Virus record (IMG/VR): IMGVR_UViG_3300024261_000980 | Coordinates: 1-36,089 of that record | DNA length: 36,089 nt | From: a virus | Strand: one strand, 5' to 3' | Shown here: piece by piece, positions 11,587 to 34,155 of the stretch | How the letters are laid out: each line of letters starts with the position of its first letter | Position numbering within the stretch: the first letter of the stretch is position 1 | The notes under the pieces: generated by a model | Told to the model about the DNA's origin: nothing | Database searches by the model: none | The model's input: only the letters and a program-made list of their open reading frames with translations | Program-made: the position numbers and the translations under genes

Positions 11587-12089
11587 TGTCGAATAAATCT
11601 AAAAATAAAGGAAAGAGTTGGGAGAGGGATGTTTGTAATTTTCTTTCTGATTTGTATAGTCAATCATTTATTAGAGTTCCCAATAGTGGAGCCTTTGTAG
11701 GTGGTAAGAATGAGTTTAGAAAAGAGACACTTTCATTAGAACAGATAAAGTTAATGCGTGGTGATATTGTTCCGCCACTAAATTATCCATACTTTGTAGC
11801 TGAGTGTAAGAACTATGCAGATTTTCCTTTTCATCAAATGGTTCACAATAATAGCATTAGGCTCCTAGATGAATGGATAGGTCAAGTGGTACATGATTGC
11901 AACCAAGAGAAAGATGTTTGGATGTTGTTTATTAAGATTACCAGAAAAGGTCAGTATGTAGTTTATGATACACGAATACTTGATGCCCTTGAGTATGGTA
12001 TAAGATACAAAAATTACTGGTTTTGTGATATGAGATATTTTTTTGATTGTTACAAAGATAGAATCGAAATGAAATGGAAAGGTGAGTGA
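11586..12089 (+). CDS. PD-(D/E)XK nuclease, Holliday-junction-resolvase-like
   Basis: A 167-residue protein. The motif order fits archaeal Hjc or similar resolvases: NKGKSWERDVCNFL (Glu13), RVPNSGAFVGGKNEF, Asp in MRGDIVPP, and the E-x-K pair in FVAECKNY. The last two elements are the PD-(D/E)XK core. It overlaps its neighbours by 1 base at each end, so it is translated with them. T4 resolves branched DNA with endonuclease VII, which belongs to another fold. A function in recombination or packaging is likely but not proven. Confidence 0.75.
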   Translation: MSNKSKNKGKSWERDVCNFLSDLYSQSFIRVPNSGAFVGGKNEFRKETLSLEQIKLMRGDIVPPLNYPYFVAECKNYADFPFHQMVHNNSIRLLDEWIGQVVHDCNQEKDVWMLFIKITRKGQYVVYDTRILDALEYGIRYKNYWFCDMRYFFDCYKDRIEMKWKGE

Positions 12090-13135
12090 TGGTTGAGAAA
12101 AAGATAAATATTGCGTTTAATGGTTTTGGTAGAATCGGTAGAAACCTAGTTAGGAAGTTGATTAACGAACCAAAGTATAATATCGTAGCAATTAATGCTA
12201 GGACAACTGTTGACGTTAGAGCTCACTTGTTTAAGTATGATTCTATTCACGGTCACTTTGACGGTAAGATTTCATTTGAGTTGGATAACTTAATCATTAA
12301 TGGTAAGACGATTCCCAACTTTGATAGAAACAGTCCATCGAAGTTGCCTTGGAAAGAATTAGAAGTTGATTACGTTATAGACTCAACTGGTAAGTTTACA
12401 GATAAGCATTCATTATCTCAACATATAGAAGCTGGTGCGAAGAATGTTATTGTTACATCACCAGCAGCAGATGTAGATGCTACATTAATATACGGAGTAA
12501 ACGAAACAGATTATAAGGTAAAGGAGAATAATATAATTTCTGCTTCATCTTGCACTACTACTTGTTTGACACCATTGTTAAAATTATTACAAAAACAGTA
12601 TGGTATTAAACAGGGATTCATTACAACCGTTCATTCATTCACTATGGGACAAACACTATTGGATTCATCCCATCCTGATTTACGAAGAGCAAGAGCTGCA
12701 ACCTTGTCAATGATTCCGACATATACTGGTGCAGCTAAAAATGTCGGAGTTGTTTTACCTGAACTAGAAGGTAAACTTGACGGGTCAGCAATCAGAGTTC
12801 CAGTTCCAGATGTATCACTATTGGATATGTCGATAGAGTTGGAGAAAGATGTTGATATTGAATCATTACATGAAATGTTTAATAAAGAGTCAAAAGGTAA
12901 GATGAAAGGTATTATTGATGTATCATGTGAGCCACTGGTTTCCGTTGACTATATTGGTAGTACTTTTTCGTCAGTAATTGATTGCCTTTCTACAAACGTG
13001 CTAAACAAGAGATTTTTGAAGTTGTTAGCATGGTATGATAATGAGCATGGATACTGCTGTAGAGTCATTGATTTACTGGATTATTTGACTAAAAAGACCA
13101 ATCCCCCTAAGTCCCCACAAACAAAGGGTTTATAA
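12089..13135 (+). CDS. gap: Glyceraldehyde-3-phosphate dehydrogenase
   Basis: A 348-residue GAPDH. The Rossmann start is FNGFGRIGRNLVRKL. Catalytic Cys155 lies in SASSCTTTCLTP (usual ASCTTNCLAP) and His182 in TTVHSFT. The phosphate-site region DLRRARAATLSMIPT-x-TGAAK and the C-terminal AWYDNEHGY are intact, so it looks active. The loop after the second strand reads VAINART where most NAD enzymes have an Asp (IND); B. subtilis GapB, which prefers NADP, has INAT. NADP use is therefore possible. It overlaps the nuclease stop (TGATG). GAPDH is an unusual phage gene; it might redirect carbon or supply NAD(P)H or ATP during infection. Confidence 0.93.
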   Translation: MVEKKINIAFNGFGRIGRNLVRKLINEPKYNIVAINARTTVDVRAHLFKYDSIHGHFDGKISFELDNLIINGKTIPNFDRNSPSKLPWKELEVDYVIDSTGKFTDKHSLSQHIEAGAKNVIVTSPAADVDATLIYGVNETDYKVKENNIISASSCTTTCLTPLLKLLQKQYGIKQGFITTVHSFTMGQTLLDSSHPDLRRARAATLSMIPTYTGAAKNVGVVLPELEGKLDGSAIRVPVPDVSLLDMSIELEKDVDIESLHEMFNKESKGKMKGIIDVSCEPLVSVDYIGSTFSSVIDCLSTNVLNKRFLKLLAWYDNEHGYCCRVIDLLDYLTKKTNPPKSPQTKGL

Positions 13136-22866: not shown

Positions 22867-23130
22867 ATGTCAGTAATTTATGGAATTTTAGCATTGGTGT
22901 GGGGTGGATATACTGTTCAACCACAAATGTTTGACAACGGCCCGTATGAGTTCAACCAAAAATATGAAACTCTAGCAGAGTGTAAAATCGCAAAGTCTGA
23001 AACGGATATTTGTGTTGGTGAGCAACCGTCAAACCTTTATGTTTTGAGTGAGAAAAAAACCCCTAGTGTTTCAGCAGAGTTAGACTTTGTTGAGTGTGAT
23101 TATTGGGCTGGTTGTTATATACAGGAGTGA
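22867..23130 (+). CDS. Hypothetical protein with Cys pairs, possibly exported
   Basis: An 87-residue protein. A short hydrophobic start (VIYGILALVWGGYTV) may be an export signal. Four Cys follow (CKIAK, ICVGE, CDYWAGCY), consistent with disulfides outside the cytoplasm. AAGGAG lies about 8 bases before the ATG. It ends 5 bases before the aldehyde dehydrogenase gene and shares its promoter. No family recognised. Confidence 0.55.
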   Translation: MSVIYGILALVWGGYTVQPQMFDNGPYEFNQKYETLAECKIAKSETDICVGEQPSNLYVLSEKKTPSVSAELDFVECDYWAGCYIQE

Positions 23131-23135
23131 ATGAT

Positions 23136-24617
23136 ATGATATATAAGAATTATATAAATGGTGTATGGTTAGATGCTTCTAAAGGAAATACGTTCAAGAA
23201 CATTGATCCAGCTCATACTGATAAAGTCATTTCAGAGTTTCAAGATTCTGATGAAGTAGATATTAACTTTGCAGTAGAAGTTGCACATAATGCTTTTAAG
23301 TTCTGGAAAAATACTCCAGCACCTAAACGTGGTGAGATTATGTATAAGGCTGCTGAGATTCTTGTAAGAGATAAAGAATGTATTGCAAAGGGTATGACTC
23401 AAGAGATGGGTAAGTGTATTGCAGAAACTAGGGGTGATGTTCAAGAAGCAATTGACATGGCTTATTATGCAGCCGGTGAGGGTAGACGTATGGCAGGTGA
23501 AGTTGTTCCTTCCGAATTAAATAATAAGTGGTGTATGTCCCGTAAAGAACCCATTGGGGTTATCGGTGCAATTACACCGTGGAACTTCCCTATAGCAATT
23601 CCATCTTGGAAAGCATTCCCAGCATTAGTTGCAGGAAACACAATGGTTATTAAACCTGCCGAGGATACTCCGTGGAGTGTCATTAAACTCGCAGAGGTTT
23701 TCCATGAAGCAGGATTACCTGCTGGTGTTTTCAATGTCGTAACTGGTTACGGCCCAACTGCTGGAGCTCCACTACTTACTAATCCAAAAGTAAAAATGAT
23801 TTCGTTTACAGGTTCTACTGCTACAGGTAAGATTGTAGCTACAACTTGTGCAGAACAGATGAAACCATATTCACTTGAGATGGGTGGTAAGAATGGTATC
23901 GTTATTATGAATGATGCTGATATTGATTTAGCTGTTGAAGGTGTAGTATGGGGAGCATTTGGTACTACTGGTCAACGGTGTACTGCTTGTAGTAGAGTTA
24001 TGGTGCATGAAGATGTCCATGACGAATTCATTGAGAAGTTGTTAGCAAAAACTGAAACATTGGAACTTGGTTGTGGACTAAGTTCATATACAGATGTTGG
24101 GCCTTTGATTAATGAGAAGGCATTAAATAAAGTTAGTGATTATGTATACAATGCAAAACAAAGAGGAATAGAACCGATTTGCGGTGGTTTCAAAAATCAA
24201 ATGCCTAACGAAGAAGTTGATGGATGGTTTTATGAACCAACTATTTTTGACAATGTAGATATTAATGATACTCTGATGCAAGAGGAAATCTTTGGGCCAG
24301 TTGTTGCAGTTACTACTTTCAGTAATACTAACGAAGCAATCTGGATGGTAAACAATACTTGTTATGGTTTGAGTGCAGCTGTTTATACCAGTGATGTCAA
24401 CTTTGCATTTACAGCATTGAATGAAATAGAAACTGGTATGGTATATATCAATGCATCAACTATTGGTGCTGAGATTCAGTTACCCTTTGGTGGTATCAAA
24501 GGAACTGGTAATGGTCATAGGGATGCTGGTAGTTCTATGATTGATAATTGTACAGAGAACAAATCTTGTATGATTGATTTTTCTGGAAAGGTTCAGAAAG
24601 CTCAAATTGACGAATGA
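23136..24617 (+). CDS. NAD(P)-dependent aldehyde dehydrogenase
   Basis: A 493-residue ALDH, full length for the family, from the ATG with AGGAG 8 bases upstream. The general base Glu248 (LEMGGKNGIV) and nucleophile Cys282 (GQRCTACSR) are 34 residues apart, as in other ALDHs. Cofactor-site motifs ITPWNFPIA, KPAEDTPWS and FTGSTATG are intact, as is EEIFGPV. The pattern is closest to semialdehyde dehydrogenases, including the ALDH7/aminoadipate-semialdehyde type, but specificity cannot be settled by eye. With the saccharopine-dehydrogenase-like enzyme it could form two successive steps of lysine catabolism. It overlaps the next gene by 4 bases. Confidence 0.92.
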   Translation: MIYKNYINGVWLDASKGNTFKNIDPAHTDKVISEFQDSDEVDINFAVEVAHNAFKFWKNTPAPKRGEIMYKAAEILVRDKECIAKGMTQEMGKCIAETRGDVQEAIDMAYYAAGEGRRMAGEVVPSELNNKWCMSRKEPIGVIGAITPWNFPIAIPSWKAFPALVAGNTMVIKPAEDTPWSVIKLAEVFHEAGLPAGVFNVVTGYGPTAGAPLLTNPKVKMISFTGSTATGKIVATTCAEQMKPYSLEMGGKNGIVIMNDADIDLAVEGVVWGAFGTTGQRCTACSRVMVHEDVHDEFIEKLLAKTETLELGCGLSSYTDVGPLINEKALNKVSDYVYNAKQRGIEPICGGFKNQMPNEEVDGWFYEPTIFDNVDINDTLMQEEIFGPVVAVTTFSNTNEAIWMVNNTCYGLSAAVYTSDVNFAFTALNEIETGMVYINASTIGAEIQLPFGGIKGTGNGHRDAGSSMIDNCTENKSCMIDFSGKVQKAQIDE

Positions 24618-26132: not shown

Positions 26133-26162
26133 TAACAATTGAGAAACATTAATTTAATGGAG
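26133..26162 (+). repeat. Promoter leader repeat, copy 2
   Basis: This copy differs from 21497-21526 at one of 30 positions. It contains CAATTG. The ATGGAG at its end opens a five-codon frame whose TGA overlaps the ATG of the EcoRI-like gene, while GGAG is also a well-placed ribosome site for that gene. Confidence 0.8.
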
Positions 26163-26170
26163 TTTATATT

Positions 26171-27424
26171 ATGAGTTCAAGTGCAAGACTTAGAGAAACA
26201 CATACAAAACTTGGAGGCGGTCAAAATATTTTTAATAAGATTGCTAAAAACCAAGAAGCTGTTTTGTCTGATTGTGTTGATAAAGTTATAGATGATGTGC
26301 AAAAAGAACATCCAGATTTAGAAATTCGTAGAAAGGATTTACTAAAAAAAACAGAAATAGCTGAAGCTCTTAATAATGGTTATAGGCCGGAAAATGATAA
26401 ATCATTTGTAAAACCTGATGGTGGAATAATCGAAGTAAAAATTGGTAAGAGTTGGTATCCGTTATTAATTTCAGAAATGAAAAAACAGGGGACGAATAAA
26501 GCACGTGAAAAAGAAGGAAAGAAAAAACAAGCAAAAGGCAATGCCATTGAAAGAGCAGCAAAAAATGTTGATGAGTTTAGATTATGGTGTGCAAATAAAA
26601 AATTAAATTATTTTCCTTATGTAATTTTTGCTTGTGGATGTGATTTTCATGCTGGTTCTACTATGTATGATCGTTGTGACGCTCTAGCGAGTTATAAACC
26701 AAGAAATAATATTAACATATTAACAGATTGTCGTATACAACCTGCTACACTTTTTATTCAAGAAAAGTCTTGGACAAGAACCGAAGTTTTGAAAAGGTTA
26801 AGAGAGTGTGTGGATGTTACGCTTAATCATATTTTACAGATGAAAAAAGGTAAAAACTTTAGTGCTAATAATAGTAAAGGTATAAGAAAGAAATCTGATT
26901 TTTATGAAACACCATATAGCATAACAGAACATTTATTTGAAAGAGAGGATTTTGATAAAGATTTATCTGTTTGTGAACCTGCTTGTGGTGGTGGTGCTAT
27001 TGTTGATATATTAAATAAACATTGGACGGATAGAGTTTTTTCTTATGACCAAGAAAAGGATTTTTTAAAAGAAAATGATAAGTATGATTATATTGTAACA
27101 AATCCCCCATTTTCTTTAGCACAGGAGTTTATACAACAAGCTAGAAAAGTCGCCAGAAAGAAGTTTGCATTTTTATTACCACTTTCATATTTACATGGTA
27201 AAAAGAGATATGATGAGATTTTTACGAGCGATACATATAAATTAAAAACTGTTTATGTATTTACTCGCTATCCTATGTTGGGTGATAAGTTACGAAAAGA
27301 TGGTAAGTATAAAACTGGTATGATGGTATATGCTTGGTATGTTTTTGAAAGCACTTATACTGGAAAACCTACTATTGAATGGATTGATAACAATGCAGAT
27401 GTTTTGAGTAAAAAAGATTTATAA
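26171..27424 (+). CDS. EcoRI-like restriction nuclease fused to DNA methyltransferase
   Basis: A 417-residue fusion. Residues 1-200 resemble EcoRI: KKTEIAEAL (EcoRI KKTEINEAL), VKPDGGIIEVK with Asp83, Glu102-x-Lys104 in ISEMKKQG (EcoRI AEAKHQG), GNAIERAAKN with Asn124 and Arg128 (EcoRI GNAIERSHKN), and FPYVIFACG. The GN-x-x-ER motif contacts AATT in EcoRI and MunI. Residues about 240-400 are an amino-methyltransferase: FYETP, SAM motif VCEPACGGGAIVDIL, catalytic NPPF (311-314). Nuclease and modification in one chain is the type IIC/IIG layout. At least eight GAATTC sites exist in this window, so the phage must be protected if the site is EcoRI's. It has its own promoter (P5). Likely a competitor-exclusion or host-DNA-degrading enzyme. 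Confidence 0.88.
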   Translation: MSSSARLRETHTKLGGGQNIFNKIAKNQEAVLSDCVDKVIDDVQKEHPDLEIRRKDLLKKTEIAEALNNGYRPENDKSFVKPDGGIIEVKIGKSWYPLLISEMKKQGTNKAREKEGKKKQAKGNAIERAAKNVDEFRLWCANKKLNYFPYVIFACGCDFHAGSTMYDRCDALASYKPRNNINILTDCRIQPATLFIQEKSWTRTEVLKRLRECVDVTLNHILQMKKGKNFSANNSKGIRKKSDFYETPYSITEHLFEREDFDKDLSVCEPACGGGAIVDILNKHWTDRVFSYDQEKDFLKENDKYDYIVTNPPFSLAQEFIQQARKVARKKFAFLLPLSYLHGKKRYDEIFTSDTYKLKTVYVFTRYPMLGDKLRKDGKYKTGMMVYAWYVFESTYTGKPTIEWIDNNADVLSKKDL

Positions 27425-28903: not shown

Positions 28904-29458
28904 ATGTGGACTAATAGAGATAATCAACCTTTAGTTATTGGGTTTGCTGGTAAAGCTAGAAGTGGTAAAGATACTGCTGGAAAATACTTGGTTGACGAAT
29001 ATCAGTTTTTACGTTATTCTTTTGCACAACCTTTAAAAGATGCAACAAAGATAATGTTTCATCTTACTGATAAACAGATTGAGAATAAAGAGAAACCAGC
29101 AGAGCCGTGGGGTAGATCACCAAGAGATTTATATCAACGGGTAGGAACAGATATTGCTCGGGCGATTGATATCAATGTATGGGTGAAGGGTGCAGATATA
29201 TTTATGAGAAATAATCCTGGCCGTTCTATTGTTGTTACCGATGTTCGTTTTTCTAATGAAGCATTCTGGATTAGAGATCAAGGTGGCATTGTTGTTTACC
29301 TTCAAAGTGATACTAGAGGTATCTATGAAAATGGTGAGCATTCAAGTGAGAATGGTATGAAGGGCGATGATGTTGATATTATCATACAGAATGATGGGAC
29401 TATCAATGCCCTGCATGAAAAACTAGAAGAACTAAAAACTGAAAGGTCTTTTGCATGA
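28904..29458 (+). CDS. Deoxynucleoside monophosphate kinase, T4 gp1-like
   Basis: A 184-residue kinase. The P-loop GFAGKARSGKDTAGKYL lies at residues 11-27. Substrate-lid motifs LYQRVGTDIARAI and VVTDVRFSNEAFWI are typical of T4 gene 1 type kinases. It is shorter than T4 gp1 (241) but holds the core. T4 gp1 accepts dTMP, dGMP and hydroxymethyl-dCMP; here modified cytosine appears to be made on DNA, so the last activity may not be needed. It overlaps the methyltransferase gene by 4 bases. Confidence 0.88.
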   Translation: MWTNRDNQPLVIGFAGKARSGKDTAGKYLVDEYQFLRYSFAQPLKDATKIMFHLTDKQIENKEKPAEPWGRSPRDLYQRVGTDIARAIDINVWVKGADIFMRNNPGRSIVVTDVRFSNEAFWIRDQGGIVVYLQSDTRGIYENGEHSSENGMKGDDVDIIIQNDGTINALHEKLEELKTERSFA

Positions 29459-30597
29459 GTAATACAGGATATAAAGAATATACTTTGAAGGATGTTAGGG
29501 ACTCTGCTGATAGGAAACTATTTACAGTTGTCTCTACATTCGCTGGTGGTGGCGGAAGTTCTACAGGGTATAAGTTAGCTGGTGGTAATGTTCTTGCAAT
29601 GAATGAGTTTCAACAAATTGCATGTGATACCTATTCTGCTAATTATCCTGATACTACAACTATTTGTAAAGATATTAGAGAATTGCGTGTCGAGGAAATA
29701 TTTGATGCAGCTAATCTTGGGCCAGGCGAATTAGATATATTCGATGGCTCTCCGCCTTGTCCGCCATTCTCTATGAGTGGGTCAAAACGTAAAGGATGGA
29801 ATAAGACTAAAAAGGTTTATGGTAAAGTACAAACTAATATTGAAGATTTAACATTTGACCTTATTAACCTAGCTAAAGATGTTCAGTCTAAGGTTATTGT
29901 TTGTGAGAATGTTAAAGGTTTAACTATGAATTATGCTAGAGATCATATGAAAAAGATGATTGAAGGATTTGAGAATATCGGGTACACTGTTGCTCATAGA
30001 GTATGTAATGCATCGTTTCACGGTGTGCCACAAAAACGTGAAAGGGTATTTATTGTTTGTGTTAGAAATGATGTGATGGAAAAACTAGGACTAAACATTA
30101 TCAGTTTAGCTGAAAAGGTTTTTCCAGTACCATATAAACTACAACCTACACAAAGAGATGCTATATATCATTTGTTAGAAGATGAAGATAATCTTGCAGA
30201 AGGTAAAATCTTAGAAGATAAAATGAGTGGTAGCACTACTGGTCAATGGGTTAAGATGATGCCGAAAGACCCGCCTAAGTATGTATCTGTTGGAGATTAT
30301 AACCCTAAAGGTAATGGTTTTCAAACAAGACGTTTGGGGTGGGATCAAGCTTCAAATACTATTCTTGAAAAAGGTTTGATGGGTCAATCGCATATTCATC
30401 CTATATGTGATAGGGGGTTTACTACTCAAGAAGCAATTCGGATTATGGGTTTACCTATTGACTTTGACCTTAAAGGTACATTGAAAGAGAAACAAGCTCG
30501 TATTGGGTTGATGGTTGCACCGCCGCAACTTAAACGTATTGCTGAGACAATTTATGAAAATATATTGAAACCATATAAAGAGATAGAAAATGTATGA
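29455..30597 (+). CDS. DNA cytosine-C5 methyltransferase
   Basis: A 380-residue enzyme with the motifs in order: I (TFAGGGGSSTGYKLAGG), IV with catalytic Cys102 (GSPPCPPFSMSG), VI with Glu151 (ENVKGL), VIII (QKRERVF) and a C-terminal motif (ITQEA-type TTQEAIRIMG). It is a lone methyltransferase without a matching nuclease next to it. The following gene is a TET/JBP-like dioxygenase and overlaps it by 4 bases. This pairing, with a glycosyltransferase third, is the known order of phage 5-methylcytosine hypermodification. Target sequence cannot be read from the protein. Confidence 0.93.
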   Translation: MSNTGYKEYTLKDVRDSADRKLFTVVSTFAGGGGSSTGYKLAGGNVLAMNEFQQIACDTYSANYPDTTTICKDIRELRVEEIFDAANLGPGELDIFDGSPPCPPFSMSGSKRKGWNKTKKVYGKVQTNIEDLTFDLINLAKDVQSKVIVCENVKGLTMNYARDHMKKMIEGFENIGYTVAHRVCNASFHGVPQKRERVFIVCVRNDVMEKLGLNIISLAEKVFPVPYKLQPTQRDAIYHLLEDEDNLAEGKILEDKMSGSTTGQWVKMMPKDPPKYVSVGDYNPKGNGFQTRRLGWDQASNTILEKGLMGQSHIHPICDRGFTTQEAIRIMGLPIDFDLKGTLKEKQARIGLMVAPPQLKRIAETIYENILKPYKEIENV

Positions 30598-31592
30598 AGA
30601 CTTTCGTTGCTGAAGTAGAACATGATGAAAAAGAAACTGATAATAAATGGAATGGAAAATTTGCAACTGAATCTTGTTATAAACAAGTAATAAAATGTGA
30701 TGAAACATTTCGTGTTGTACGTCCAAATAAAAATGTTCTTAACGACTATGAACCTATAGCTATTGTTGTTAAGAAGGGCTTCAATGAAGATGAACACAAT
30801 TTGATAAAAGATACATTGTACTCTATTGATGAAACATCTAATATGAGAGCTAATGCGTCTGGGCCTATTGACAAACAAAAACTGTTAGATGAAAAGGGTT
30901 GGGTAGAGGATGAGCATTACAAACTAAGAACACCCAACTCTTATTATACAAAAATGAAAGATGGCACTTGGAATGATATTGCTGTAGGTCAAGATATACA
31001 CTCATTACTCCTTGGTTACAAACGTGGAAGGTTTACGGGAAAAATTCAGTTGTCTGCATGGGCTAGAGATAATGCTGATAGATGGGAGAAGCTATTAAAG
31101 ATTTCTGAAATAAATGAAAGAGCATTTGAACAGGTTCATCCAGACAGGTATTATTCACAGAAAACATTTGCTGAGAAGTTTATAGCTGAAGAGCATAGGA
31201 TGGGTATATTCACTGCTTATTCACCTAACAAGTATAATGAAGCTCAGACTAAGCAGATGTCTTTGCATATAGATAAGGGCGATACCGAGTTAGGATTTAC
31301 TACAATGTCAGTTTTTCGGGTGGGTGAGTATACAGGTGCTTATCTTGTATTTCCTAGATGGCAGATTGGTATTGATACCGATGACGGCGACATTATAATT
31401 GCTGACTCTAAACAGGTTCACGGCGTATCAGCTATCTACGGTGAAGGCACTAGGTTATCGTGTGTAGCATATTGTGATAGTAAGGTAGCTACACTAGCAG
31501 GCGGTGAAGTGATTGCACGTCCAGAAAAATTGATAGGACAGACGTATGTGAAGGAAGGCGTGAAGCCTAATAATTTGGAGGCATTTCTATGA
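30594..31592 (+). CDS. TET/JBP-like 2-oxoglutarate Fe(II) dioxygenase
   Basis: A 332-residue protein. The C-terminal half has the double-stranded beta-helix iron site: His225-x-Asp227 (LHIDKGD) and His276 (KQVHGVSAI), with Arg287 (TRLSC) for 2-oxoglutarate. The strands between (VFRVGEYTGAYLVFP, DDGDIIIADS) fit the TET/JBP family. The N-terminal 150 residues are without recognised motifs and may bind DNA. Placed between a C5-methyltransferase and an AGT-like enzyme, it should oxidise 5-methylcytosine to 5-hydroxymethylcytosine in DNA. Phage TETs of this kind have been shown to act on cytosine in DNA. A PKHD-type protein hydroxylase is the alternative. Confidence 0.85.
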   Translation: MKTFVAEVEHDEKETDNKWNGKFATESCYKQVIKCDETFRVVRPNKNVLNDYEPIAIVVKKGFNEDEHNLIKDTLYSIDETSNMRANASGPIDKQKLLDEKGWVEDEHYKLRTPNSYYTKMKDGTWNDIAVGQDIHSLLLGYKRGRFTGKIQLSAWARDNADRWEKLLKISEINERAFEQVHPDRYYSQKTFAEKFIAEEHRMGIFTAYSPNKYNEAQTKQMSLHIDKGDTELGFTTMSVFRVGEYTGAYLVFPRWQIGIDTDDGDIIIADSKQVHGVSAIYGEGTRLSCVAYCDSKVATLAGGEVIARPEKLIGQTYVKEGVKPNNLEAFL

Positions 31593-32743
31593 TAGCACTT
31601 GTTATGGGTAGAGGTGTTGAGGGTTGTGGTGTTACCCGATATACCATTGAGTATAAGAATTGGCTAGAGAAACAGGGAAAAGAAGTTGTAGTATATGCAT
31701 TGAAAGAGAAAAGTTTTAGTAGAGGAAAAGCACAGGTATTCGACTATAAAATCTTTACTCCCAATGATGATATTTCTGCGGAGCTTAATGAATGTGAGTA
31801 TGTTGTTTATATGTCAGTGCCTTCTACTTCAAATTCACAGAAAGGAATAGATAATTTTGTAGAGAATTGTGTTTATAAAGTTACACCCAAAAAGATATTT
31901 ATTCAATTAGATCATAAACGTCAATCTCTACAAAGAAATGCTAGAATGTGGGATGTTGTAGAATATTGTGATGTTGTTTTTAATTATTCCAAGACTACTG
32001 ATTTTGGTGAGCAGTTTGATAAACACTTTGGCCCTACATTAATAGAAAGAGAAAGACCCATACCAGAGTATGGCTACTTTAGAGTTGCAATGGATTTTGA
32101 TACTATATCTCCATTGAGAAAAAAGTTTTCTGAAAAGGTAGACAGGGTATCTTACTTTGGAAGGTTTGCTAGATTTAAGCATCCTCAACGTGTTATAGAT
32201 TTAAGAAAACAATTAAAGGGTAATATCATTACCGAGATGAGAGGATTGGAAAGGTCTATTGGTGCATTAGATATATTTAATCATCCAGAAATTATAGAAG
32301 TTAAAAAGGGCGAAGATGTCGAACAGAACTGTTTTGATAAATCTTATGTCTATGGCCCTTACAATAGAAGCGAGGGGATGGAAGAAATCTCAAAGAGTAA
32401 GTTTGGTTGCTCCTTCTATGAATTGGATGCTAGGTATTATGGTTATCATGTCGAGTATGCAATGCTAGAAATTGTTGGATTGGGATTGATACCTATATTC
32501 AGTAAACATTGGGGTGATAATACTAAACATATTTCAGGTAAGTCTTTTAGCTCTATTCCTTTTTCTGGAATTTATATGGGCCCTGATAATATTGATGAAG
32601 TATGTAAAAGGATTATAGAAATAAATAATGATGAAGCACTATACAATGAGTATGTTGCTAATTGTATTGAAGTTTATAGATCACACTCTTCAGCTGATTC
32701 TGTCTTTTCTGATTTACAAAAAACAATAGGAGAAATATTATGA
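31589..32743 (+). CDS. agt: DNA alpha-glucosyltransferase, T4 AGT-like
   Basis: A 384-residue GT-B enzyme. The N-terminus MGRGVEGCGVTRYTIEYKNW matches T4 AGT (MARGLEGCGVTKFSLEQRDW). KEKSFSRG corresponds to KDKSFTRT, SVPSTS to SVPATS, and MRGLERS to MEGLERS. YFGRFARFKHPQRVIDL is the typical start of the second Rossmann domain. It moves glucose from UDP-glucose to hydroxymethylcytosine in DNA, which protects phage DNA from nucleases and Cas proteins. Length is near the T4 enzyme (400). It overlaps the TET-like gene by 4 bases. In contrast to T4, no dCMP hydroxymethylase is in the window. Confidence 0.92.
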   Translation: MIALVMGRGVEGCGVTRYTIEYKNWLEKQGKEVVVYALKEKSFSRGKAQVFDYKIFTPNDDISAELNECEYVVYMSVPSTSNSQKGIDNFVENCVYKVTPKKIFIQLDHKRQSLQRNARMWDVVEYCDVVFNYSKTTDFGEQFDKHFGPTLIERERPIPEYGYFRVAMDFDTISPLRKKFSEKVDRVSYFGRFARFKHPQRVIDLRKQLKGNIITEMRGLERSIGALDIFNHPEIIEVKKGEDVEQNCFDKSYVYGPYNRSEGMEEISKSKFGCSFYELDARYYGYHVEYAMLEIVGLGLIPIFSKHWGDNTKHISGKSFSSIPFSGIYMGPDNIDEVCKRIIEINNDEALYNEYVANCIEVYRSHSSADSVFSDLQKTIGEIL

Positions 32744-33127: not shown

Positions 33128-33237
33128 AAGAAACAATAGTATGGAGTATGATAGGTATTGCTGTTGTCATGTGTTTGGCTTTAGGACTGTATGAATTGAT
33201 TAACTTCATGGAAAGTTGTCAATGTGTTAGTCTATAA
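33124..33237 (+). CDS. Tiny membrane protein (37 aa)
   Basis: A 37-residue frame with one helix (WSMIGIAVVMCLALGLYELI) and a C-terminal CQC. Its ATG overlaps the previous stop by 4 bases. It is the third one-helix or partly hydrophobic small protein in this stretch. It ends just before the tmRNA promoter. Function unknown. Confidence 0.55.
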   Translation: MKETIVWSMIGIAVVMCLALGLYELINFMESCQCVSL

Positions 33238-33247
33238 CGAATTGCTG

Positions 33248-33253
33248 TATAAT
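33248..33253 (+). promoter_or_regulatory. -10 box before the tmRNA
   Basis: A perfect TATAAT lies about 7 bases before the predicted start of the tmRNA acceptor piece. No good -35 box is seen at the right distance. The upstream TATAACGAAT also occurs in promoter P7. Confidence 0.5.
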
Positions 33254-33259
33254 CTGTAT

Positions 33260-33496
33260 AACGGAACTATATAGGACGGGGGTTCGATTCCCCCTTCCTC
33301 CACCAAATTCTATTACGGGGGAAATCGGTTTCGACTGTATATGGAAGGTATACGGACAGCACGGAGAAGAATGATGGCTCCGTTATCAATCATTCAAATC
33401 ACAAACGCAAACGATTATTCGTATGCTATTGCTGCGTAGTTAAGTAGCTAGGGTTTTGGTAGTTTTCCTCGTAACAGAATAAACTACCGCTTATTA
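33260..33496 (+). ncRNA. ssrA: Circularly permuted two-piece tmRNA
   Basis: The acceptor piece comes first (about 33260-33305): P2 strand TATATAG (33268-33274), T arm GGGGG-TTCGATT-CCCCC, acceptor strand TTCCTCC and encoded ACCA. An 11-base spacer follows, then the coding piece from 33317 starting GGGGGAAATCGGTTTCGACTG. The acceptor stem pairs fully with the alanine mark G3-U70 (33319 with 33299). P2 forms between 33335-33341 and 33268-33274. The tag frame 33407-33436 encodes ANDYSYAIAA, with stop TAG; it resembles ANDENYALAA. A final hairpin GGTAGTTT / AAACTACC (33458-33489) fits a late pseudoknot element. It rescues stalled ribosomes and marks proteins for proteolysis. The exact ends are approximate. 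Confidence 0.93.
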
Positions 33497-33516
33497 ATAT
33501 AATATGGAGATTTATT

Positions 33517-34155
33517 TTGAACGATTTAACTGAGAATTTATTATTCAAAGTAGGTAAGGTACATTCTGGTTTTATCAAACATACATATACAATTTATGAT
33601 AGGTCTTATAAACCTGATATTTTGGATGGTGTATTAGAGTCAGAGTTTGCATATCTTTTTGAAAGATTATTTTATGATAGAGTTCAGAGTTTAAAACTTT
33701 CTTGTGATGTGATTGAAAAAAAAGAGATGGATAGTTTAATAGAAGGTTTTGGGAATGGTGTCGGTTATAGTGAAGATGCTTTGAAATTTAAAAAGAATAT
33801 CAACAAAGCTGATTCTGCTGTGATAAAAAAGTCTGGATACACTGCAGACCATTTTGAACAACCACAAATGAAATGTAAAAAAGTATTAATAGAACAAAAT
33901 AAAAATAAAAAGACTTGGATATTTGATGAATATGTAAAATTTTATATTACTTGTGCTAGAGTTAATTTAGTAACAAGTAATGAAAATACTTTATTAGGTA
34001 GTAAAACAAAAGAAGATAGAAGATTATATTATTCTGATATATTTGGTGAAGATAGACAGTTAAAAATATATGATATAAATGGAAATATTATTGATGCTGA
34101 TGTTGATAGCTCTATGTATCAATTAAAGCCATCATTGATAGCTTTTTTCAAATAG
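33517..34155 (+). CDS. Hypothetical protein between tmRNA and tRNA-Gly
   Basis: A 212-residue protein with a TTG start and GGAG 8 bases upstream. It is mixed alpha/beta, with DRSYKPDILDGVLESEFAYL near the N-terminus and a KKTWIFDEYVKFYITCARV centre. No motif of a known enzyme is visible. Its place in the RNA gene cluster suggests it may be expressed together with the tmRNA. Function unknown. Confidence 0.6.
   Translation: MNDLTENLLFKVGKVHSGFIKHTYTIYDRSYKPDILDGVLESEFAYLFERLFYDRVQSLKLSCDVIEKKEMDSLIEGFGNGVGYSEDALKFKKNINKADSAVIKKSGYTADHFEQPQMKCKKVLIEQNKNKKTWIFDEYVKFYITCARVNLVTSNENTLLGSKTKEDRRLYYSDIFGEDRQLKIYDINGNIIDADVDSSMYQLKPSLIAFFK

Follow-up and report, generated by a model that had tools for sequence, protein, structure and literature searches.

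The window analysed here is a 36,089-nucleotide stretch of marine phage DNA (IMG/VR record IMGVR_UViG_3300024261_000980, positions 1 to 36,089), which carries an open reading frame coding for a single chain with an EcoRI-type nuclease domain (R) followed by a DNA methylase domain (M) (Table 1). A previous sequence-only reading had placed the PD..E-x-K catalytic set, the GNAIER motif and an NPPF motif together in one fused chain, and all of them are present, at PD(83)..E(102)-x-K(104), residues 123-128 and residues 311-314, respectively. By sequence and profile matches, nuclease and methylase domains stand in a single polypeptide, as in type IIC enzymes. Elsewhere, the window contains a tmRNA gene (33213-33530, tag ANDYSYAIAA), tRNA-Ala, -Thr and -Gly genes, an aldehyde dehydrogenase gene (23103-24617, Pfam E=2.1e-170) and a GAPDH-like gene (12086-13135, recognized by eye only). 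GATC is strongly under-represented in it (46 vs 128.7 expected).

Table 1. Features of the fused gene in the window, and of the gene preceding R in the nuclease-only clade
Feature	Position	Strand	Basis or remark
Shine-Dalgarno-like GGAG, 8 nt ahead of ATG	26159..26162	+	By reading the sequence
Fused restriction-modification ORF, 417 aa	26171..27424	+	ATG start; Pfam and phrog_799 matches; second contig L002
Nuclease (R) domain, residues 1-223, EcoRI family	26171..26839	+	Pfam PF02963, Foldseek, VIA
Catalytic set D83 ... E102-x-K104	26417..26482	+	Kept in all viral R sequences covering the position, among 52 (D 51/51, E 51/51, K 52/52)
GNAIER, residues 123-128, EcoRI recognition motif	26537..26554	+	52/52 viral R sequences
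CAG-ATG fusion junction, no linker	26837..26842	+	R end in frame with former M start codon
Methylase (M) domain, residues 224-417, gamma-class N6-adenine, without separate target-recognition domain	26840..27424	+	phrog_799, M.TaqI fold
Motif I EPACGGG, AdoMet binding	26975..26995	+	E, P and G columns invariant or nearly so in M alignment
Motif IV NPPF, catalytic	27101..27112	+	NPP invariant in 28/28 M sequences, F nearly invariant
Gene before R in nuclease-only clade	L060:5323-6453		Druantia DruA PF14236, E=3.7e-7; at least 600 matched stretches among viral relatives

Domains of the fused chain

The identities proposed for the two halves, an EcoRI-type nuclease and an adenine-type methylase, are upheld by both profile and fold. 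Residues 16-170 match the Pfam EcoRI family (PF02963) with E=6.5e-20 and 71.7 bits, the family's cut-off being 22, and phmmer against the PDB retrieves EcoRI 1ckq (E=9.1e-17); NCBIfam gave no match for R or M. When the R domain (223 aa) is modelled by AlphaFold2 from 12 sequences (pLDDT 82, pTM 0.80), Foldseek matches it to EcoRI (E=5.2e-14), and the R half of the full-length model superposes on EcoRI 1eri with a VIA Z of 21.2 and an rmsd of 2.6 Å over 196 residues, which is the outcome that the sequence-only reading had anticipated for a structural comparison. Apart from this fold, the domain shares with EcoRI the catalytic D..ExK and GNAIER, through which EcoRI reads AATT, and R168 aligns with EcoRI R200. 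It differs from EcoRI in its length (223 vs about 276 aa), its fusion to a methylase, its viral origin and its inferred site, RAATTY instead of GAATTC. The window has Q120 at the position of EcoRI M137, and viral R sequences mostly have K, Q or L at that of A139; as both are EcoRI contact positions, the differences would suit a nuclease that reads the outer base pair less strictly. Purifying selection acts on R, with dN/dS of 0.06-0.32 in 10 pairs. In the bacterial genome contigs scanned, the R query gave 43 pattern matches and 0 relatives, so that the R clade was not found there, and the M query gave 3 loci.

As for the methylase, residues 221-409 correspond to phrog_799 'DNA methyltransferase' (E=4.6e-47), and the M half superposes on the catalytic domain of M.TaqI 1aqj with Z 14.3 (model residues 245-411 on chain residues 21-226). 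This M.TaqI-like fold, together with the order of motif I before motif IV NPPF, is that of a gamma-class enzyme, and the scores against the M.EcoRI family PF13651 (20.5 and 21.7 bits) lie below its cut-off of 26.4. M comprises 194 aa and its alignment stops at M.TaqI residue 226 of about 390; a separate target-recognition domain (TRD) is absent. The full-length AlphaFold2 model (30 sequences, pLDDT 80, pTM 0.55) consists of two domains with a low-confidence stretch, residues 226-232, between them, and its relative domain placement is unreliable.

A separate IMG/VR record, L002, is 99.83% identical to the window over 8801 bp (11 mismatches and 4 gaps) and codes for the identical 417-aa fused chain. 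Because this distinct contig encodes the same chain, a sequencing error confined to one contig is ruled out as the source of the fusion.

Separate, fused and solitary relatives

Scanning IMG/VR with the whole protein yielded 42 loci. R is present at 20 of them, and the DNA examined shows M alone at the other 22, where L043 is no more than a fragment and L008 shares its contig with a piece of R (L077). When an R alignment was the query, 51 loci were found, several of them near-identical contigs. M is a separate neighbour of R in 26/51, is fused to it in 4/51 (the L002 contig, plus L079, L080 and L082 of another lineage) and gives no match in 15/51, here called R-only, where thyX often adjoins R; 5/51 are other loci without such an M, and 1/51 is cut by the contig end. 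The one-chain description is thus supported for the window and these four loci, but does not hold for the family in general. Among these other 5 (L081 and L083 to L086), R of L081 overlaps a gene for a D12-class methylase, and a search covering L083, L084 and L086 gave D12 matches in each of those records. The same 366-aa protein is encoded on both strands, face to face, at L081:4554-6817, which is probably an assembly palindrome.

At the separate-gene loci, M lies out of the R frame in 19/19 examined, mostly overlapping the end of R. In the window, the final R codons run into CAG-ATG, whose ATG is the start codon of M in stand-alone relatives. The one-chain form would have been produced when such overlapping, out-of-frame R and M genes were brought into the same frame. 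Among 36 R sequences placed in a tree whose deep joins are unsure, fused L079 and L080 fall away from the window, inside a clade with 100/100 support whose other loci have separate genes; by this nesting, fusion arose at least twice.

One reading of the fused chain is that of a broken restriction-modification system in transition to an orphan methylase, with R having lost its cutting activity and M guarding the phage from host enzymes. At least 20 of the 42 M loci are without a full R in the DNA examined, the terminal branch of the window R is long (0.94), and at L020:100-910 only a C-terminal R remnant directly precedes an intact M, seemingly a cassette that has decayed to an orphan methylase. 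But the window and the other fused lineage have both kept all catalytic and recognition residues, and in the latter the frame stays open although L079 and L080 diverge at 18% of synonymous R sites. The R dN/dS of 0.17 for this pair, over a pS of 0.18, indicates that selection has maintained an uninterrupted frame through the junction, and we regard decay of the nuclease as unlikely. Another reading is that both products are made, the fused chain cutting and a free M from the internal ATG at 26840 doing most of the methylation. The ATG at the former M start is retained in both fused lineages, which would suit such a use, but the methionine has perhaps been retained by descent alone and no Shine-Dalgarno-like sequence lies ahead of 26840; this second product seems doubtful, if less so than the loss of cutting.

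Missing RAATTY sites in the R-only clade

Evidence on the specificity of R comes from the phages in which it was found without M. In the three largest contigs of the R-only clade (G006, G007 and G008, 128 kb in total), RAATTY occurs 0 times vs 114.9 expected under an order-2 Markov model, with AAATTC, AAATTT, GAATTC and GAATTT all absent, and the 12 other NAATTN words are at or near expectation. Twelve further R-only loci have 0 RAATTY vs 70.3 expected and 187 other NAATTN vs 186.6, although these contigs are kin and their counts are not independent. A codon-shuffle null gives 0 vs 105.5, 59.4 and 47.5 for R-only contigs, an expectation overstated about twofold, as three sister contigs reach 0.41-0.59 of it. 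Between R-only contigs, 0 RAATTY sites were gained vs 17.8-23.9 expected; control pairs reach 0.24-0.48 of expectation, and the calibrated figure is nearer 6-8. A search for M covered 15 records, 12 from the 15 R-only loci plus those of L083, L084 and L086, and found it in 0/15, the same query being positive in a known carrier; as R-only contigs are fragments, this absence covers the sequence examined, and M may lie elsewhere in the genome.

Taking avoidance as an in-vivo proxy, strict GAATTC specificity is rejected for the R-only relatives, since AAATTT, AAATTC and GAATTT are missing along with GAATTC, and so is plain AATT specificity, as CAATTG (33/34.7) and TAATTA (22/18.4) stand at expectation. 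The AATT-centred recognition predicted from GNAIER is supported and refined to RAATTY. This palindromic site is read not from the window protein itself but from relatives whose R domains are only about 40% identical to that of the window; by extension from them, the window nuclease, too, would be specific for RAATTY.

Sister phages without R served as control, the set being the 80 loci with relatives of the 376-aa gene upstream of R. RAATTY stands at 0/85.0 in the 9 with R, at 968/1294.4 in the 70 with no R in the DNA examined, and at 13/20.9 in the remaining one, which is 93% identical and has no R in a fully covered interval to thyX. L115, among the 70 (97% identical, interval uncovered), has 0/5.1 and may itself have R. 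Whole-record searches of twelve sisters, with working positive controls, found neither R nor M, and seven of these records have 391 RAATTY vs 502.3 expected. Among 1323 degenerate palindromes, RAATTY shows the strongest contrast between R-only phages and sisters (log10 P -38.8), followed by AAATTT at -10.5, more than 28 orders behind, and, at -7.7, by the top-scoring palindrome not of the AATT group; the R-only carriers being one clade, this is essentially one phylogenetic comparison. GAATTC is already low in the sisters (37/116.3), and AAATTT is the cleaner word, with 127/136.5 in sisters vs 0/26.1 in R-only phages.

The same clade-wide loss could also have been driven by a host RAATTY-specific restriction-modification system, with the phage R incidental and of unknown specificity. 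Strong host-driven avoidance does seem to occur, for CTGCAG, TGCGCA, CTTAAG, GACGTC and GCATGC are nearly absent from G006-G008 as well. These five palindromes, however, are equally rare in the sisters (7/65.7, 3/51.9, 4/91.1, 0/49.6 and 3/39.4), which suggests restriction systems of shared hosts behind them, whereas RAATTY is near normal there. Moreover, RAATTY is missing from 15/15 R-only loci, and its AATT core was predicted independently by GNAIER. A host origin of the loss is accordingly improbable in our judgement.

Self-protection, role and known systems

Phages which carry both R and M keep the site, with RAATTY counts of 183 (G001), 36 (G003) and 25 (G004) in contigs with separate R and M, and of 156 (G009) and 57 (window) in fused DNA. 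Because these contigs retain sites that R would cut, M presumably methylates RAATTY, its specificity being taken over from that of R. The sites are nevertheless fewer than expected, at 57/109.5 in the window (other NAATTN 199/248.3) and 256/450.0 over the loci with separate R and M, with 36/100.0 in contig G003, which speaks against simple full protection by M; protection may be incomplete, or other pressures may be at work. In L035 and L037, which are M-only and prophage-like, RAATTY lies about 2.4-fold over expectation (67/27.9 and 72/28.5) and other NAATTN at about half.

Independent support for RAATTY comes from known methylases of this target. M.CjeNI and M.CjeFI are described as methylating RAATTY (PMC3526280) and as belonging to the D12 class (PMC4294202), the class of R's partner in L081. 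That partner is 48% identical to a Campylobacter showae methylase. The window M would have the RAATTY target in common with M.CjeNI and M.CjeFI, and differs from them in being gamma-class and of phrog_799.

The sequence-only reading had the phage's own DNA methylated or glucosylated, and only the first of these is supported, by the retained sites. Window genes at 28904-32743 encode in a row, according to Pfam, a dNMP kinase, a C5-methyltransferase, a TET/JBP-type oxygenase and an alpha-glucosyltransferase, the TET match of 27.1 bits being under the Pfam cut-off of 34.9. To judge from these gene assignments, they would probably make glucosylated hydroxymethylcytosine after replication. As a sufficient shield, this modification is rejected. 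The window contains 17 copies of AAATTT, a word without cytosine which cytosine glucosylation cannot shield, so that adenine methylation is needed; further, the AATT enzyme MluCI is reported to digest glucosyl-hmC T4 DNA fully (PMC7653180). In 17 other R-carrying records, a TET gene was found in none, in a search without positive control, and a C5-methyltransferase gene in none, with controls working.

Taken together, we consider it quite likely that the phage encodes a type II restriction-modification enzyme specific for RAATTY, here in single-chain form, which cuts unmodified RAATTY in host or rival phage DNA. R would cut unmethylated sites, probably as a homodimer like EcoRI, in the host chromosome and in co-infecting phages, and M would methylate an adenine in RAATTY to protect the phage genome. 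The R-only clade would be safe through having no such sites, and the persistence of R without M argues that R is itself useful. That a virus may degrade host DNA with restriction enzymes has a precedent in the chloroviruses, whose enzymes are held responsible for it (PMC7019647). R might instead be a selfish homing-type or exclusion nuclease directed at sister phages rather than the host chromosome: sisters are rich in RAATTY (211 in the 144-kb G028) and R carriers have 0, and phages that are otherwise alike may have or lack R, in the manner of a cassette. Against this, the chlorovirus enzymes, credited with degrading host DNA, are stated to have caused no mutual exclusion (PMC7019647), and we rate the idea as possible but on balance improbable. 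We lean, with some reserve, towards a phage weapon rather than a self-preserving toxin and antidote, the EcoRI-type nuclease being kept with a methylase, as a repeatedly arisen one-chain fusion, or alone with its sites purged.

Phage- or virus-borne restriction-modification systems and one-chain restriction-modification enzymes are each already known, although one paper states that type II restriction enzymes 'rarely occur on bacteriophages' (PMC4081073). Type IIC/IIG enzymes (Eco57I, MmeI, BcgI) likewise join an N-terminal PD-(D/E)xK nuclease and a gamma-class methylase in one chain, but they cut off-site and share a specificity module (PMC4081073), whereas the window R is a complete EcoRI-type nuclease and its M is without a TRD. 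The predicted site is the one given for ApoI (PMC7653180). Chlorovirus type II systems (CviAII etc.) are also virus-encoded, with host DNA degradation proposed as their role (PMC7019647); they belong to eukaryotic algal viruses and have adjacent but separate genes. The closest design is RM.Eco29kI, in which overlapping R and M genes, in that order, were joined into one bifunctional chain (PMC3039593), an activity that is predicted in the present case; that enzyme is engineered, of GIY-YIG type and from a bacterial plasmid, in contrast to a natural viral fusion with the EcoRI fold. Its authors suggested that natural fusions could exist (PMC3039593). A literature search of partial coverage, reaching few subscription journals and preprints, showed among the matches listed no natural fusion of an EcoRI-fold nuclease to a TRD-less methylase in phages beside site-purged nuclease-only phages.

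One viral clade displays several evolutionary stages together, with separate genes, fused genes, a nuclease alone with self-sites purged, and a methylase alone, in one case with a nuclease remnant. It points to a possible origin of some orphan phage methylases, and it provides a natural test of how one-chain restriction-modification enzymes arise and what a virus gains from restriction, and a compact 417-aa enzyme with a testable predicted specificity, RAATTY. If the nuclease is indeed a phage weapon, the fused chain would be the equivalent in nature of the engineered RM.Eco29kI, and the specificity of a viral nuclease would be readable from the words missing in the virus's own genome.
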